Origin: Planctomycetia bacterium
GTDB taxonomy: Bacteria > Planctomycetota > Planctomycetia > Pirellulales > UBA1268
Reading direction: 5' to 3'
NCBI GenBank assembly: GCA_014192425.1
Contig: BJHK01000008.1
Span: 1-64,000 of the forward strand
DNA: 64,000 bases
Made by a program: the position numbers and the translations under genes. The notes beneath the pieces were generated by a model. It ran no database searches and was not told the origin of the DNA. It saw nothing but the letters and a program-made list of their open reading frames with translations. Shown piece after piece: positions 22,129 through 50,703 of the stretch. How positions within the stretch are numbered: the stretch's first letter is position 1; the number at the start of each line of letters is the position of its first letter.

Positions 22129-23289
22129 TCAGTCGCCCCCGCCATCGCCAGCCGACGACGCGGCGATGACGATGTCCTTGCTGGCGAGGATCTTCTCGCG
22201 GAGTTCCTGGGCCACCTCGGGGTTCTCCTTGAGGAACAGGCGGGCCTTCTCCCGCCCCTGCCCGAGGTGCACCTCGCCGTATCGCAGCCAGGTGCCGGTC
22301 TTGTCCACGAGCTTGGCGGTGACGGCCAGGTCGAGGATGTCCCCCTCCACGCTGATGCCGTCGGCGTGCATCATGTCGAACTCGGCCACCCGGAACGGCG
22401 GCGCCACCTTGTTCTTGACCACCTTGACCTTCACCCGCTGTCCGACGACATCCTCGCCGTCTTTCAGCTGGCCGATCCGTCGGACGTCGACCCGGCAGGA
22501 CGAATAGAACTTGAGCGCCCGGCCGCCCGGCGTGGTCTCCGGGCTGCCGAACATGACGCCGATCTTCTCACGGATCTGGTTGATAAAGATCACCGTCGTC
22601 TTCGACTTGGCGATGGCCCCCGTCAGCTTCCGCATCGCCTGGCTCATGAGCCGGGCCTGGAGGCCGACGAACGAGTCACCGATCTCGCCGTCGAGTTCCT
22701 TCTGCGGCACGAGTGCCGCCACGGAGTCGACGACGATGATGTCGATGGCGTTGCTCTTGATCAGCATCTCGGCGATGTTCATCGCCTCCTCGCCACTCGT
22801 CGGCTGGCTGACGAGCAGCGACTCCAAGGAGATGCCCAGCTTCTTTGCCCAGCTCGGGTCGAGCGCGTGCTCGGCGTCAATGAAGGCCGCGATGCCGCCG
22901 GCGCGTTGCGACGCCGCCACGGCATGGAGTGCGAGCGTCGTTTTGCCGCTCGACTCCGGGCCGAAGACCTCGATAATCCGTCCGCGCGGGAAGCCCTTGC
23001 CGCCGAGGGCGAGGTCGACCGACAGGCTGCCGGAGGAGATGCCCTCGATCGGCGCCTGGGCGTCGAGCCCGAGTGGCATGATCGAACCTTCGCCGAACTC
23101 CTTCTCGATCTGGGCGAGCGTGTTCCGCAGCGTGGCGTTGTCCTCGAGGAACGAGGGGATGGGCTTGGCACCCTTTTTCCCTCCGCGTCCCTCGTCGAGT
23201 TTGGCTTCCTTGTCTTTCGCTGCGTCCTTCGCCGCTTTGTCATCCTTTTTGCCCATCCGACCGCTCGCTCCTGCTGGTGCCATGATCAT
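22129..23289 (-). CDS. recA: Recombinase RecA with lysine-rich N-terminal extension
   Basis: A 386-residue RecA. Walker A is GPESSGKT, followed by the conserved [27 protein letters not shown], and the DNA-binding loops around [11 protein letters not shown] and [20 protein letters not shown]. It forms nucleoprotein filaments for recombination and LexA cleavage. About 45 residues rich in Lys, Asp and Gly precede the usual start (near [13 protein letters not shown]). ATG 23289 has GGGAGG 8 bases upstream; ATGs at 23283 and 23256 are also possible. A promoter with a palindromic operator lies at 23373-23416. Confidence 0.96.
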
Positions 23290-23372: not shown

Positions 23373-23416
23373 ATACTGAACCTAGGTATAGTATCGGAGC
23401 CGGCCGGGTTTGGCAA
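23373..23416 (-). promoter_or_regulatory. recA promoter with candidate LexA operator
   Basis: On the minus strand, TTGCCA (23411-23416) is followed after 15 bases by GATACT, or after 17 by TACTAT. A 22-bp imperfect palindrome (23373-23394), centred on ACCTAGGT with outer arms ATACT/AGTAT, overlaps the -10. The block matches the imuA promoter site in about 15 of 22 positions, and both have a TTG-N-CA element 15 bases before N-ATACT. The ATG is 84 bases downstream. Confidence 0.6.
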
Positions 23417-44638: not shown

Positions 44639-44682
44639 TTGACAGCCGGGGAACGATTGTATACTGTACATGAGTACATAAA
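44639..44682 (+). promoter_or_regulatory. imuA promoter with candidate LexA operator
   Basis: TTGACA (44639-44644) and TATACT (44660-44665) are 15 bases apart. The palindrome TGTAC-ATGA-GTACA (44665-44678) overlaps the end of the -10. The 22-base block from 44661 matches the recA promoter block in about 15 positions. Both promoters have the same 15-base spacing. The ATG of imuA is at 44701, with GCGGAGG before it. Confidence 0.65.
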
Positions 44683-44700: not shown

Positions 44701-45594
44701 ATGGTGACGTTTGGGCTCGGCCCGTCGGGGCTGGTCGATGCCGGGAGCCTTCAGGTTCGGGAGGCGGCCCGTGAGGTGGTGTCGAGCGGCTTTCGACCAC
44801 TCGATTCCCTGCTGCCGGCCGGCGGCATCCGCCGGGGCAGCCTGATCGAATGGCTGGCCGGTGGCGCGATCGCGGGGGGGGCGGCGACGCTCGCCGCCGC
44901 GGTTGCCTGTCGTCTGGCCCGGGCCGCCCAGCGGTCGCGGACGATTCTCGTCGTCGATCGCTCGGGCTGGTTTCATCCGCCCGCCATCCTTCCCTGGCTG
45001 GGCCGGGAGGGGAGCGGGCTGCAGCTCGTCGTGGCCCGTCCTTCGCGAGACGAGGATGAGATCTGGGCAATCGACCAGGGGCTGCGCTGCGCCGGCGTGG
45101 CGGCCGTGCTGGCATGGCCGCGGATGCAGGCCGCCGGCAGTGGCCTGTGGCCAGCCGCGCAGCGGCGGTCGCCGCCGCACGCCCGACAGCAGTGGTCGAT
45201 CGCGATGCGTCGCTGGCAGTTGGCGGCCAAGTCGAGCGGTGCCATCGGGTTCTTCGTCCGGCCGGCAGCCGCGCAACGGGAGCCCTCCTGGGCCGAGGCG
45301 AGGATCGCCGTCACGCCACTTCCGGGTGGCACGCTGCTGGAACGCCGGCTGCGGCTCGAGCGGGCCGGCGGCTACTGGCCGCTTCCGGCCAGTAGCAACT
45401 GCCCGGAAGTGGCCGGCAATCAGTCTGTCGAGATCGTGCTCGATCTGGAGAGCGGAGCAGCAGCCATCGGGCGCGCCGCCGGCGTGGCGCCGCGCGCCGC
45501 GGAAGGTGTCCGCAGCGGTGCCGTGCGGTCGGACGAGGCGATCGGACCGGCGGCAAGCATTTCCGAGCGGGGTGTGTCATGCCGCGCATCATGA
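44701..45594 (+). CDS. imuA: ImuA-like RecA-fold protein of the SOS mutasome
   Basis: A 297-residue protein upstream of imuB and dnaE2. Like ImuA/SulA-type proteins it starts with a RecA-like region (FRPLDSLLPAGGIRRGSLIE). The P-loop position reads GGAIAGGAATLAA and lacks the Gly-Lys-Thr/Ser of Walker A, so ATP binding is doubtful. ILVVDRSGWFHPPAI and GLRCAGVAAVLAWPR follow. In other bacteria ImuA interacts with RecA and links ImuB to stalled forks. Its 3' end overlaps imuB by 16 bases. Confidence 0.85.
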   Translation: MVTFGLGPSGLVDAGSLQVREAAREVVSSGFRPLDSLLPAGGIRRGSLIEWLAGGAIAGGAATLAAAVACRLARAAQRSRTILVVDRSGWFHPPAILPWLGREGSGLQLVVARPSRDEDEIWAIDQGLRCAGVAAVLAWPRMQAAGSGLWPAAQRRSPPHARQQWSIAMRRWQLAAKSSGAIGFFVRPAAAQREPSWAEARIAVTPLPGGTLLERRLRLERAGGYWPLPASSNCPEVAGNQSVEIVLDLESGAAAIGRAAGVAPRAAEGVRSGAVRSDEAIGPAASISERGVSCRAS

Positions 45595-47432
45595 CGATCT
45601 GGCTGCCGCGCTGGCCGGTGCAGCGGCGGCTCCTGGAGCGGCCCGAGTGGCGTGCGCTGCCGGTGTTCGTCTGCCGCCGCGAGCGCCGTGGCGTGATGAC
45701 GGTGGTCTCGTGGGCCTGGGCGGAGCCGCCCCGGTCGGCGGCCCGACGTGCGGGGGGACGTCGGCCGAGGATTCCCGAGGGCATGTCGCTCGCCGAGGCG
45801 ATGGCGGTGCTGTCGCTGGCTCACGGTTCCCCTGCCTGCCATGTCGCCGAGGTCGTGCCTGACGACCCGGCCGCGGACCGGGCCGCACTCGATCAGTTGG
45901 GCCGCTGGTGCCGCCGGTTCTCGCCGACGGTGGGCATCATGGATGACGCCGCCTGGACACCTGCCGAATGCATCCACCTCGACGTGACCGGCACGGCGAA
46001 CTTCTTCGGCGGCGAGGCGGCCCTGGCCCGCACGGCCGTCTGGACGCTCGCGGCCCGTGGGGTGCATGGGCGGGTCGCCATTGCCGACACCTGCGCCGCC
46101 TCCTGGGCGGCCGCACGGCACACCGACCTGCTGCGCGATCCGCGGGAAGCGGTCGGTTCCCGCTCCACGCTCGTGTCACGGCGGCGGCGGCGCTGGGGCG
46201 TCGTGCCCGCCGGTGCCCAGCGGCAGTGGAGAGGTGCAGACGCCGCGCTGGCCGGCCTGCCGCTGACGGCGTTGCGTCTCGACCAGGCCACGATCGGAAT
46301 GCTCGGCGAACTGGGCATCGACACGATCGGTGGCGCGCTGCGGTTGCCGGCGGCGGCGCTCGCATCCCGCTTTCCCCCCCTGCTCTCCCTGCGGCTCGCC
46401 CAGTTCACGGGCGCCGTCGCCGAGCCGCTGGCGGCGCCGCGCGGCGAGGAATTGCCGCAGGCGACGCAGGCATTCGAGGTGCCGCTGGCGGGCCGGGAGG
46501 AAATCAGGCAGACGCTGGAGCACGTGATCGACCGGCTGGTGGCGGCATGCGTCGCACCGCTGGCCGCACGGGGCAAGGGCGTGCTCGCGCTGCAGGTGCG
46601 TCTGGAGCAGGCTGCAGCCGCGTCGGCCGCGACCGCGGCGCCGATCGTCGTCGATGTCGGGCTCTTCCGGCCGAGCGTCTCGGTCCGGCATCTCGTCGAT
46701 CTCGTGCGGCTCCGGCTGGAGCGGGTCCGGCTGGCCGGCGACGTCGAGGGAGTGGCCGTGGAGGTACTGGCAGCGGGCACCGTGGCCTGCCGGCAGCGGT
46801 CGCTCTTCGAGACGCACGACGCCGACGACGCGGCCGGCATCGAGCCGCTGCTCGATCGGCTCTCCAGCCGGCTCGGGCGCGGGGCCGTGTTCGAGCCGAA
46901 GGGGGTGGCCGATGCCCAGCCGGAGCAGGCCTGGATCGCGGCGCCACCCGGCACGGGAGTGGTTCGCACGGACGGACGCGATGCCGGTGGCGGTACGGCG
47001 AGCGAACCGCGCACGGAGGGCCGCGCCGGTTCCCGGTCGCAGCATGGGCCCCCCCGGGAACGGACGCCCCGGGAACGGTCGGTCTGGGAGCAGGTGCGCT
47101 GGGGGGATCGGGTGCCACTGGCCGGTCTGACGCTGCAGCGGGCGGCCGGTCGGCGGCCTCTCTGGATGCTGCCCCGCCCCCTGCCGCTCGAGCCGCTGCT
47201 GGCGGGCCCGGTGGCGATCGCGCCGGACGGCCCGCCGCTGCGGTTTCGGCTCGGTGACGAGGTGCATGCGATCGTGCAAGCGTACGGGCCCGAGCGGATC
47301 GAGACGGCGTGGTGGCGCGGGCCGACCGTGCGGCGCGACTACTACGTTGTCGAGACGGAGTCGGGGGGCCGGTTCTGGGTCTTCCGCCGCCTGCGGGACG
47401 GGGGCTGGTTTCTGCATGGGACGTTTGCCTGA
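45579..47432 (+). CDS. imuB: ImuB-like Y-family polymerase, probably non-catalytic
   Basis: A 617-residue Y-family-like protein. It has the N-terminal MPRIMTIWLPRWPVQRRL, palm-region IHLDVTGTANFFGGE and the C-terminal segments around FEPKGVADAQPEQAW, then PLPLEPLL and YYVVETESGGRFWVFRRLRD. The conserved acidic residues of active Y polymerases (D in the first motif, S-x-D-E in the second) are not present, as in other ImuB proteins. It probably serves as the beta-clamp adaptor between ImuA and DnaE2. It overlaps imuA and is followed by dnaE2 after 34 bases. Confidence 0.88.
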   Translation: MPRIMTIWLPRWPVQRRLLERPEWRALPVFVCRRERRGVMTVVSWAWAEPPRSAARRAGGRRPRIPEGMSLAEAMAVLSLAHGSPACHVAEVVPDDPAADRAALDQLGRWCRRFSPTVGIMDDAAWTPAECIHLDVTGTANFFGGEAALARTAVWTLAARGVHGRVAIADTCAASWAAARHTDLLRDPREAVGSRSTLVSRRRRRWGVVPAGAQRQWRGADAALAGLPLTALRLDQATIGMLGELGIDTIGGALRLPAAALASRFPPLLSLRLAQFTGAVAEPLAAPRGEELPQATQAFEVPLAGREEIRQTLEHVIDRLVAACVAPLAARGKGVLALQVRLEQAAAASAATAAPIVVDVGLFRPSVSVRHLVDLVRLRLERVRLAGDVEGVAVEVLAAGTVACRQRSLFETHDADDAAGIEPLLDRLSSRLGRGAVFEPKGVADAQPEQAWIAAPPGTGVVRTDGRDAGGGTASEPRTEGRAGSRSQHGPPRERTPRERSVWEQVRWGDRVPLAGLTLQRAAGRRPLWMLPRPLPLEPLLAGPVAIAPDGPPLRFRLGDEVHAIVQAYGPERIETAWWRGPTVRRDYYVVETESGGRFWVFRRLRDGGWFLHGTFA

Positions 47433-47466
47433 GTATGGAGCGCGTGCGCGAAGGAGCGGGATTGCC

Positions 47467-50400
47467 ATGAATGCGACTCGATCGGCTGGACCGCGGTATG
47501 CGGAATTGCACTGCATGAGCAACTTCTCCTTTCTCGAGGGGGCCTCGCATCCCGAGGAGCTCGTGCAACGGGCCGGGGAACTTGGCTACGAGGCCCTGGC
47601 GATCACCGACCGGGCCTCGCTCGCCGGCATCGTGCGTGCCCACGGAGCCGCCCGGGACACCGGGATCAAGCTGATCGTCGGCACGCACCTGGAGCCGTGC
47701 GATGCTGCACCGCTGGTCGTCTGGGCGGCCGATCGCACGGGGTACGCGAACCTCTGCCGGCTGCTCACCCGCGGCTACGGTCGCGGTCGGGAGAACGGGG
47801 CGTGCGTGCTCACCTACGACGACGTGGTTCGGCATTCCGCCGGCCTGCTGGCGGGCGTGCCGCTGGCGGCGCTGCCCGGAAGCGACGGCCGCGACGAGCG
47901 GCTGCGTGCCGAGGCGATCGAGGCCCTGCAGCACTGGCGCAGCGCGTTCGACGGCCGGATCTGGGCGCTGGCCGAGGTGGCGCTCGAGGGGGACGATGCG
48001 GACCGCCTCCGGTCGTTCGGCCACGTGGCCCGGCTGGCGGGCGTGCCGGTCGCCGCGGCTGGCGACGTGCGCTACCACGAGCGGTCGCGGCTCCCGCTCC
48101 ACGACGTGCTCGCGGCCGTGCGGCACGGCGGCACGGTCGACGCGATTCGCGGCCGGCTGCTCGCCAACGGCGAGCGCCATCTCCACGAGCGCTGGCGGAT
48201 CGCTGCGCGGTTCGCCGCGCTGCCCGGCAGCCTCGAGCAGGCGGTCGAGATCGCCGGCCGCTGCACGTTCACGCTCGACGAGCTGCGGTACGACTACCCC
48301 GCGGCGAGCGTGCCGCCGGGCCGCACGCCCCGCGAGCACCTTGCCGAACTGGCCTGGAACGGCGCCCGGCGCCGGTATGTGGAAGGCATTCCCGACAAGG
48401 TGTGCGAGCTCCTCATCCACGAACTGGCGCTGATCGCAGAACTCGGCTACGAGGCCTACTTCCTCACCGTGCACGACATCGTCCGGTTCGCCCGCAGCCG
48501 CGGCATCCTCTGCCAGGGCCGCGGCTCGGCCGCCAATTCGGCCGTCTGTTACTGCCTCGGGATCACGGCGGTCGATCCGGCGCGGATGAACGTGCTCTTC
48601 GAGCGGTTCGTGAGCCGGGAGCGGCGCGAGGCTCCCGATATCGACATCGATTTCGAGCATCAGCGCCGCGAGGAGGTGCTGCAGTACATCTACGACACCT
48701 ACGGCCGCGATCGGGCGGCGATGACGGCCGAGGTGATCCGCTACCGGCTCCGGTCGGCCGTGCGCGACGTCGGCAAGGCGGTCGGACTGACGCTCGATCG
48801 CGTCGCTGCGATCGCGCAGGTCCTCGACCCCGGCGACGGCGTCGAGGACCTGCCGCGGCGGCTCGTCGAGGCCGGCCTCGATCCTGCCGCGGCCACCTGC
48901 GCGCGGCTCGAGGCGCTCGTCGGCCAGCTCGTCGGCTTTCCCCGGCACCTCGGCCAGCACGTCGGCGGCATGATCATGACACGGGGGGATCTCTGCGATC
49001 TCGTGCCGATCCAGCCGGCGGCGATGGACGGCCGGACGATCGTGCAGTGGAACAAGGACGACCTCGACGAACTCGGCATCCTCAAGGTCGACTGCCTGGC
49101 GCTCGGCATGCTGACGGCGATCCACCGGGCCTTCGACCTGGTGGTGGCGGCGGGGGGGCCGCGGCTCATGCTCGACACGGTGCCCGCCGAGGATCCGGCC
49201 GTCTACGAGATGATCTCCCGGGCAGACACCGTGGGCGTGTTCCAGATCGAGAGCCGGGCCCAGATGAGCATGCTGCCCCGGCTCCGGCCGCAGTGCTTCT
49301 ACGACCTCGTCATCGAGGTGGCGATCGTCCGCCCCGGGCCGATCCAGGGGGACATGGTCCATCCCTACCTGCGCCGGCGTTGCGGTGAGGAGCAGCCGAC
49401 GTATCCCAACGACGCGATCCGCGCGGTGCTGGAGAAGACGCTCGGTGTGCCCCTCTTCCAGGAGCAGGCGATGCGACTGGCCGTGGTGGCGGCCGGCTTC
49501 ACGCCCGGCGAGGCGGACCAGTTGCGGCGGGCGATGGGGGCCTGGCGCCGGCCCGGCGTCATCGACGAGTTCCACCGCCGGCTGGTCGACGGCATGCTCG
49601 CCAACGGCCTGTCCCGCGAGTTCGCCGAGCAGGTCTTCAACCAGATCCGCGGCTTCGGCGAGTACGGCTTTCCCGAGTCGCATGCCGCGAGTTTCGCCCT
49701 CCTGGTCTATGTCTCTGCGTGGCTCAAGTGCCACCATCCGGCGGCGTTCACGGCGGCGTTGCTCGGCAGCCAGCCGATGGGTTTTTACGCGCCGGCGCAG
49801 CTCGTTCGCGACGCCCGGGCACACGGCGTGACGGTGCTGCCGGTGGACGTGAACGCCAGCTGCTGGCAGGCGACGCTGGAGGTCGGCTCCTCCCCGGCCG
49901 GCGAACGTCGCGAGCCGGCGATCCGCCTCGGTCTGGAGCAGGTGCATGGGCTGGGGCCGGGGCCGGCGCTGCGGATCGAGGAGGCCCGGCGACAGGGGCC
50001 GTTTCGCCTGCCGCGCGACCTGGCACTTCGGGCCGGACTCGACCGCGAGACGCTCCTGCACATCGCCCGCGCCGGGGCCCTCGGCTCGCTGGGGTTGAAC
50101 CGGCGCCGGGCGGTCTGGGAGGCACTACAGTGCCTCGATCGGCCCGACCGCCGGCCGCTCCTCGATGGTCTCGCCGACCCGGACATCGATGTCGAGGACG
50201 ATGAGAATGACGGCGCGGAGGATGATTTCCTGCCGGCGACGACCGCGCGCGAGGAGGTGATCGACGACTATCGCACGGGCGGGCTGTCGCTGGCGGCCCA
50301 TCCGCTCCAGTTCGACCGCGACTGGCTCGCCGTCCGCGGCGCGATCACGACCGCCGCTGTGGCCGTGGCCCCGGAGGGGCGGCGGGTGCAGGTGGCGGGG

Positions 50401-50703
50401 ATCGTGCTGACGCGGCAGCGGCCGGCGACGGCGAAGGGGCTGATGTTCATGACGATCGAGGACGAGACGGGGGCGGCCAACGTCCTCGTCCGGCCCGATG
50501 TCTGGGAGCGGACGGCCCCCGCGGCGCGGCGGGCCGCGGTGCTCGTCGTGCATGGCAGGGTGCAGCGGCGCGGCGCCGTGATCCACGTCGTGGCGACCAG
50601 GCTCGAACCCTGTGTGCCTCTCCCTGCGGAGCGTCGCTCGAGCGTGGCTGATTCCCGGTCGCTGCCCGCCGAGCTGCCGCGGATGAGTCGCGATTTTCAC
50701 TGA
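47467..50703 (+). CDS. dnaE2: Error-prone DNA polymerase DnaE2
   Basis: A 1078-residue C-family polymerase. The PHP domain is N-terminal (YAELHCMSNFSFLEGASHPE), the catalytic aspartates are in APDIDIDFEHQRREEV (about residue 390), and GFPRHLGQHVGGMIM and FQIESRAQMSMLPRL are typical of DnaE2. Near the C-terminus is an OB-fold (VAGIVLTRQRPATAKGLMFM). It is the polymerase of the damage-induced ImuA/ImuB/DnaE2 mutasome. ATG 47467 was chosen from the conserved N-terminus. Confidence 0.95.
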   Translation: MNATRSAGPRYAELHCMSNFSFLEGASHPEELVQRAGELGYEALAITDRASLAGIVRAHGAARDTGIKLIVGTHLEPCDAAPLVVWAADRTGYANLCRLLTRGYGRGRENGACVLTYDDVVRHSAGLLAGVPLAALPGSDGRDERLRAEAIEALQHWRSAFDGRIWALAEVALEGDDADRLRSFGHVARLAGVPVAAAGDVRYHERSRLPLHDVLAAVRHGGTVDAIRGRLLANGERHLHERWRIAARFAALPGSLEQAVEIAGRCTFTLDELRYDYPAASVPPGRTPREHLAELAWNGARRRYVEGIPDKVCELLIHELALIAELGYEAYFLTVHDIVRFARSRGILCQGRGSAANSAVCYCLGITAVDPARMNVLFERFVSRERREAPDIDIDFEHQRREEVLQYIYDTYGRDRAAMTAEVIRYRLRSAVRDVGKAVGLTLDRVAAIAQVLDPGDGVEDLPRRLVEAGLDPAAATCARLEALVGQLVGFPRHLGQHVGGMIMTRGDLCDLVPIQPAAMDGRTIVQWNKDDLDELGILKVDCLALGMLTAIHRAFDLVVAAGGPRLMLDTVPAEDPAVYEMISRADTVGVFQIESRAQMSMLPRLRPQCFYDLVIEVAIVRPGPIQGDMVHPYLRRRCGEEQPTYPNDAIRAVLEKTLGVPLFQEQAMRLAVVAAGFTPGEADQLRRAMGAWRRPGVIDEFHRRLVDGMLANGLSREFAEQVFNQIRGFGEYGFPESHAASFALLVYVSAWLKCHHPAAFTAALLGSQPMGFYAPAQLVRDARAHGVTVLPVDVNASCWQATLEVGSSPAGERREPAIRLGLEQVHGLGPGPALRIEEARRQGPFRLPRDLALRAGLDRETLLHIARAGALGSLGLNRRRAVWEALQCLDRPDRRPLLDGLADPDIDVEDDENDGAEDDFLPATTAREEVIDDYRTGGLSLAAHPLQFDRDWLAVRGAITTAAVAVAPEGRRVQVAGIVLTRQRPATAKGLMFMTIEDETGAANVLVRPDVWERTAPAARRAAVLVVHGRVQRRGAVIHVVATRLEPCVPLPAERRSSVADSRSLPAELPRMSRDFH

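Follow-up and report, generated by a model that had tools for sequence, protein, structure and literature searches.

The analyzed window, a stretch of 64,000 nucleotides with a GC fraction of 0.705, is the start of contig C8 in a genome of 3.98 Mb and 70 contigs. It contains imuA, an imuB-like open reading frame (ORF) and dnaE2 as consecutive genes on one strand, with imuA as the first gene of the mutasome operon. The imuA gene (44701..45594, + strand, ATG at 44701) matches NF033429 at 70.6 bits (E 1.5e-19), short of the curated cut-off of 150, and dnaE2 (47254..50703, + strand), coding for an error-prone DNA polymerase, matches NF004225 over the cut-off with 1375 bits. The ORF between them (45579..47432, + strand) matches the IMS family PF00817 below the cut-off (E 0.093, residues 13–179), and its identification as imuB comes mainly from its position between imuA and dnaE2. 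The window also carries recA on the minus strand (22129..23289; TIGR02012, 505.5 bits, over the cut-off).

Upstream of imuA, we predict a −35 element, TTGACA (44639..44644, + strand), of which TTGAC is found at equal distance in 15/15 genus loci shown, and, after a 17-base spacer, a −10 element read as TACTGT (44662..44667, + strand) from column conservation in 15 genus loci. This hexamer begins the putative operator, or LexA box, TACTGTAC-ATGA-GTACA (44662..44678, + strand), the palindromic core of which spans 44665–44678. A first-pass annotation of the same DNA had described TTGACA, TATACT 15 bases past it (44660–44665), and TGTAC-ATGA-GTACA following the latter; all of these elements had been located correctly, but the palindrome shares one T with TATACT and does not strictly follow it. 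TGTACNNNNGTACA has one exact match in the window, and one in the genome as a whole. Since a hand estimate from base composition gives about one or fewer occurrences of the palindrome alone per genome, the palindrome is by itself unremarkable and it is its location that is notable. TGTACN4GTACA alone was rejected as a regulon query: with at most one mismatch it is found at 20 places, versus 18 for the control.

The predicted recA promoter, on the minus strand, consists of a −35 element TTGCCA (23411..23416) and a −10 element read as TACTAT (23388..23393), likewise with a 17-base spacer. The putative recA operator, TACTATAC-CTAG-GTTCA (23377..23393, − strand), is part of a 22-base dyad (23373–23394), and the block reads ATACTATACCTAGGTTCAGTAT on the minus strand (23394–23373). 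Its resemblance to the imuA block, given earlier as about 15 positions, is real, with 14 of 22 positions agreeing by our count. The recA block is the top match to the imuA block on both strands of the 64-kb window, the next other place reaching 13. Of the longer box TASTRTACNNNNGTWCA, the window contains just two exact copies, one at recA and one at imuA. Among genus and family recA loci, 13/27 have a further box, with two mismatches, roughly 50 bases upstream. The sole further site in the window with at most one mismatch to the box is TAGGATACGGCCGTTCA at 1237–1253.

The lexA gene, on another contig (C4) and not used in framing the first-pass annotation, bears out the LexA box predicted there, with TTACTATACGGCCGTTCA in its upstream region. 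The box itself, TTACTATAC-GGCC-GTTCA (C4:63467–63483), lies on the strand opposite the gene, 131 bases ahead of the ATG, and matches exactly the search pattern TASTRTAC-N4-GTWCA, in which S (C or G) was taken from relatives. As judged by eye, the lexA promoter is built of TTGAAA (often TTGACT in other families) and a TANNNT hexamer 16 bases on, with the reversed box within the spacer and its outer TA supplying the first two bases of the TANNNT hexamer. In 8/30 lexA loci, a second box, with two mismatches, follows at 15 bases. The LexA protein matches TIGR00498 over the cut-off (192 bits) as well as PF01726 and PF00717, and its alignment has GDSM, ATLK and VAAG, that is, the Ala-Gly site plus the Ser and Lys of an S24 peptidase. 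An intact LexA of the self-cleaving type, its cleavage being predicted, is encoded in the same genome. The genome also encodes a 101-residue protein (C8:102498–102677; L006:1444-1749, − strand) that has the LexA DNA-binding domain alone (PF01726, 36.6 bits) without a peptidase match.

Genome-wide, the pattern has five exact matches, at lexA, recA, imuA, C1:149899 and C2:114336, and 19 and 67 matches when up to one and up to two mismatches are allowed. Ten simulated genomes of 4.0 Mb, five each of first-order and third-order composition, contained 0 exact matches. Allowing up to one mismatch gave averages of 0.6 and 0.8 (first- and third-order, respectively), and allowing up to two gave 14.2 and 24.4. 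The pattern read backwards, used as a control, is found 52 times in the genome with up to two mismatches, versus 67 for the real pattern. Two-mismatch matches are thus mostly noise at the scale of the genome, and were taken as regulon members only if kept in relatives or imuA-like in layout; in addition, a single repeated module accounts for some of the sites with one or two mismatches. The pattern was partly shaped on the lexA, recA and imuA sites themselves, so that conservation, together with the absence of matches elsewhere, provides a fairer test.

Conservation was evaluated in 60 genomes (this genome and 59 others), of which 22 belong to the genus, 15 are other members of the family and 23 belong to other families of the order; lexA was found in 59/60, this genome included. 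The scan of own and related genomes proposed in the first-pass annotation places the box upstream of lexA, recA and imuA; uvrA and ruvAB, named there as well, are absent from the part of the matches that was annotated. With up to one mismatch, it precedes lexA in 21/21 genus, 14/14 family and 17/23 other-family loci, recA in 14/14, 12/12 and 17/23, and imuA in 16/16, 8/9 and 8/15, which for genus and family combined amounts to 35/35, 26/26 and 24/25, respectively. These counts are not independent events, because the genomes are related. Under the same threshold, 195.3 kb of coding and downstream DNA from the same loci gave 0 matches. Exact matches, compared with the backwards control, number 58 versus 0 in the genus, 35 versus 4 in the rest of the family and 30 versus 8 in other families. 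By position, 49 of the 58 exact genus matches are at lexA, recA or imuA; three of the remaining nine were inspected, namely C1:149899, C2:114336 and a site at a metallophosphatase gene in G003. The latter gene is sbcD-like.

The lexA loci counted come from 58 of the 59 genomes with a match, G029 (contig edge) being left out, and the G038 locus, with only 225 bases at a contig edge, was scored as a miss. For recA, 50/55 loci were used (G001, G011, G017, G029 and G030 left out as part matches or at a contig edge), and for imuA 41/43 (G030 and G036 left out as part matches); the counts further leave out one recA and one imuA locus lacking upstream DNA. Among lexA loci in named records, retrieved via the LexA recognition-helix peptide, the box is present in 63/79 usable loci, with 67 matches in 38.8 kb of upstream DNA versus a single match in the other 291 kb of these loci; the genomes overlap largely with those above, and the sample is not independent of them. 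The LexA relatives in these records are from planctomycete metagenome genomes with labels that include Planctomycetaceae, Pirellulales and Thermoguttaceae. The order is probably Pirellulales.

In the other families of the order, 6/23 lexA, 6/23 recA and 7/15 imuA loci lack a site within one mismatch, and recA often carries a different double arrangement. Three such recA promoters, L131 (G056), L134 (G054) and L143 (G037), have two overlapping imperfect boxes in place of one, and in L131 and L143 the arrangement is approximately TASTGAAC-N4-ATACAGTATTC-N4-GTAYAST.

Aligned columns also bear on how the promoters are read. In the 15 genus imuA promoters, the box arms carry 2.06 bits per column, the four middle bases 0.53 and the 17-base spacer 0.42, with TTGAC kept; the imuA spacer has drifted whereas the box arms have not, and the four middle bases drift too. 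The middle consensus MTRR offered earlier was over-fitted, as the four centre bases vary among relatives, and the left arm has either C or G at its third base. The earlier reading also gave both promoters a 15-base −35/−10 spacing. The letters are there, in imuA as above and in recA with TTGCCA (23416–23411) 15 bases ahead of GATACT, but the register is probably wrong, since the conserved −10-like hexamer TASTRT sits 17 bases after TTGAC(A/G) or TTGCC(A) in imuA and recA. By eye, the hexamer chosen earlier starts with G in 24/26 box-bearing recA loci of the genus and family, and with T in no more than 7/15 imuA loci. We therefore read the promoter as TTGAC-N17-TASTRT, with the −10 element inside the operator. 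Since the lexA box lies in the opposite orientation within a 16-base spacer, the promoter layout suggested earlier does not hold for every member of the set. The box would overlie the predicted −10-like hexamer in recA and imuA, and the predicted spacer in lexA. In each case its outermost TA falls in the −10-like hexamer, so that this TA may be conserved for the sake of RNA polymerase, with a LexA box proper of about ASTRTAC-N4-GTWCA.

Because the same sequence precedes recA and lexA and has been conserved in dozens of relatives, the imuA palindrome is very probably an operator of the SOS repressor LexA. From these sequence comparisons we infer the promoter elements, the binding of LexA to the box, repression through this binding, and induction by damage. 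In the undamaged cell, a LexA dimer would sit on TASTRTAC-N4-GTWCA, covering the −10 hexamer and the transcription start at imuA and recA, and the −35/−10 spacer at lexA, and would in this way exclude RNA polymerase from the imuA-imuB-dnaE2 mutasome operon, from recA and from lexA itself. Upon damage, RecA would form filaments on DNA and promote self-cleavage of LexA, and the genes would be switched on. With a working consensus of this kind, sequence alone would allow prediction of the SOS regulon in a large group that is poorly tractable, and the box sites are ready probes for binding tests.

Part of this pattern could arise if the shared block were a conserved promoter only, made up of the −10 element and its surroundings, with no operator. 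The left arm TASTRT of recA and imuA is indeed a −10-like hexamer 17 bases from TTGAC/TTGCC, and the needs of RNA polymerase may well account for the retention of its outermost TA. A promoter element would, however, leave unexplained that the right arm GTWCA, beyond the four free bases, is conserved as well, that lexA has the same sequence reversed between its −35 and −10 elements, and that exact matches in the genus are found almost solely at SOS genes; we consider this explanation highly improbable. The resemblance between the imuA and recA blocks might, on the other hand, have been a chance similarity picked by eye, given that only two sites were compared in the first-pass annotation and that, by the hand estimate, a genome should contain the palindrome alone about once. 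The box at lexA, a gene that played no part in that comparison, its retention in relatives against an empty 195.3-kb control, and the lack of any exact match in ten simulated genomes leave chance with a negligible probability.

The box could also belong to another damage-responsive regulator acting on lexA, recA and imuA, for instance a Cro/C1-type repressor. In relatives, two exact boxes precede genes for Cro/C1-type helix-turn-helix (HTH) proteins (L209 and L215), and the protein with only a LexA DNA-binding domain (C8:102498) is encoded in the genome itself. Against such a regulator, lexA is present in 59/60 genomes, a box stands in its own promoter, as autoregulation would have it, and known LexA boxes share the arm-N4-arm design in the portions of the literature available; we judge it very unlikely. 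LexA itself is the regulator that we favor.

LexA boxes differ from phylum to phylum. The cyanobacterial box is RGTACNNNDGTWCB, with AGTACWNWTGTACT as a further form, and is listed upstream of lexA, recA and ssb in the accessible part of PMC3091678. It has in common with the planctomycete box a 14-base pseudo-palindrome with two 4-base arms of the GTAC/GTTC kind and four middle bases, but its outer bases are A/T (AGTAC...GTACT) where the planctomycete box has T/A (TGTAC...GTACA) (PMC3091678, same part). Unlike the cyanobacterial form as described there, the planctomycete box commonly has ATAC arms, and its left arm extends into TAST, which in recA and imuA also reads as a −10-like element. The Gram-positive box, GAAC-N4-GTTC in the available text of PMC3323433, has the same spacing and arm length, and its GTTC right arm is usual in genus recA and lexA, whereas the left arm at most planctomycete sites is RTAC and not GAAC. 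With palindromic 4-base arms (RTAC or GAAC / GTWC) separated by four bases, the box, as read from its sequence, belongs to the Gram-positive/cyanobacterial LexA class.

Other motifs also serve the SOS response but differ in arms, spacing or symmetry, as far as the accessible sections of the sources describe them: TTAC-N3-GTAA in Bdellovibrio, GGTT-N10-AACC in Geobacter and the direct repeat GTTC-N7-GTTC in Alphaproteobacteria (PMC8565304), a direct repeat in Balneolaeota (PMC7739468), and CTG(TA)5CAG in E. coli (PMC3091678). An E. coli-type CTG-N10-CAG is absent by eye from the three sites in this genome, imuA having CTG without CAG ten bases on, recA CAG without CTG ten bases before, and lexA neither. 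The available part of PMC3108266 states that LexA of Planctomycetes does not recognize the conventional E. coli motif, and gives no planctomycete motif. The accessible portions of the open-access literature on LexA motifs, SOS and Planctomycetes yielded no planctomycete LexA motif among the papers listed. The box is thus ordinary in kind and, as far as our searches of open-access literature reach, apparently undescribed for this order.

Across the order, the box is weaker yet recognizable, and the remainder of the phylum sample essentially lacks it. The lexA form TGWAC-N4-GTATATTA is common in the other families of the order (17/23 within one mismatch of the pattern). Outside the order, a core-like site with inverted arms is found at lexA in 1/12 loci of the same class and, scattered, in 4/67 of other classes; the search expression also allowed direct arms, and two more same-class and four more other-class regions with non-inverted arms were not counted. 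The sample comprised 135 genomes with a match, and upstream DNA was read for 82 of these (29 + 53 loci), among the matches listed, leaving out part matches, rows with stops and second copies. A dyad search revealed no clear common inverted repeat in the 12 same-class or the 67 other-class lexA upstream regions. Several same-class lexA promoters may hold a weaker form by eye, CTGTAGAC-GACA-GTATACTA, which we do not count as evidence. The recognition helix reads SPNGVVCHLKALE in 28/30 family loci (those in which the helix was located), SPNGVVCH, SPNGVMCH and SPNGVRGH in three further loci of the order, and SPNGVMCHLKALE in 11/12 same-class loci (those read in frame), and it differs in the 14 other-class loci shown. 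It is a puzzle that the LexA of the sister order has nearly the same recognition helix and an own promoter without the plain form of the box.

Judged by their boxes, nrdJ, ssb, comM and the genes for a Schlafen-type helicase and IS200-like transposases are possible further LexA targets. The gene nrdJ, for a class II ribonucleotide reductase (L195:2-2134, − strand, contig C10; NF005122, over the cut-off), has a promoter of the form TTGNNN-N16-TATNNT carrying a LexA-like box, which in 57 genomes is exact in 3, has one mismatch in 17 and two in 34, and is missing in 3 (54/57 within two mismatches). In most of the family the site reads ACTATAC-GNAA-GTATACT, and as its middle bases are more constant than at other sites, another regulator is possible at nrdJ. 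Seen in this genome only are one-mismatch boxes at ssb (C5:73373) and at a gene of the Mg-chelatase family by Pfam (C13:45654), which we take to be comM, and an exact box at a Schlafen-group-3 helicase gene (C2:114336). An IS200-like transposase ORF (L190:847-1896, − strand; PF01797, E 4.8e-5) has the exact box at C1:149899, and a transposase-like ORF (L191:1747-2790, + strand) has a two-mismatch box at C18:34199; the first residues of the latter resemble L190 by eye only, and Pfam gives nothing for it. Both promoters have TTGAC with the box 17 bases on, an imuA-like layout. A Pfam search of the genome for Y1 transposases listed one.

The region C2:93792–115043 (L188 and L189) contains defence-like genes, among them two Schlafen-group-3 helicases (PADLOC PDC-S41) and a DruM2-like cytosine methylase, and a repeated promoter module, with nine aligned copies that have a box-like palindrome, GKCAA and GGACCARGGTTGTCC. 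The last is present in 11 copies in L188 and L189 and in none in the window. Being part of a repeated module, the C2 sites are not independent matches. A tentative and rather doubtful extension of these observations is that SOS control reaches beyond repair, the LexA box driving class II ribonucleotide reductase across the order and being carried by the module to IS200-like transposases and into a phage-defence island with genes for Schlafen-group helicases and a Druantia-like cytosine methylase. If so, damage to DNA would lead to a joint rise in dNTP supply, defence and transposition.

Two candidates were discarded during gene assignment: L199:2258-5074, for which uvrA had been suggested by its length, is a peptidase S46, and ORF 1289-2281 of L193, first taken as a transposase, matches PglD and hexapeptide families. 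At C19:23356 (L192), a one-mismatch box, TAATATACATTCGTACA, is flanked by a DrmMI/type IIG methylase-like ORF on one side and a small divergent ORF on the other.
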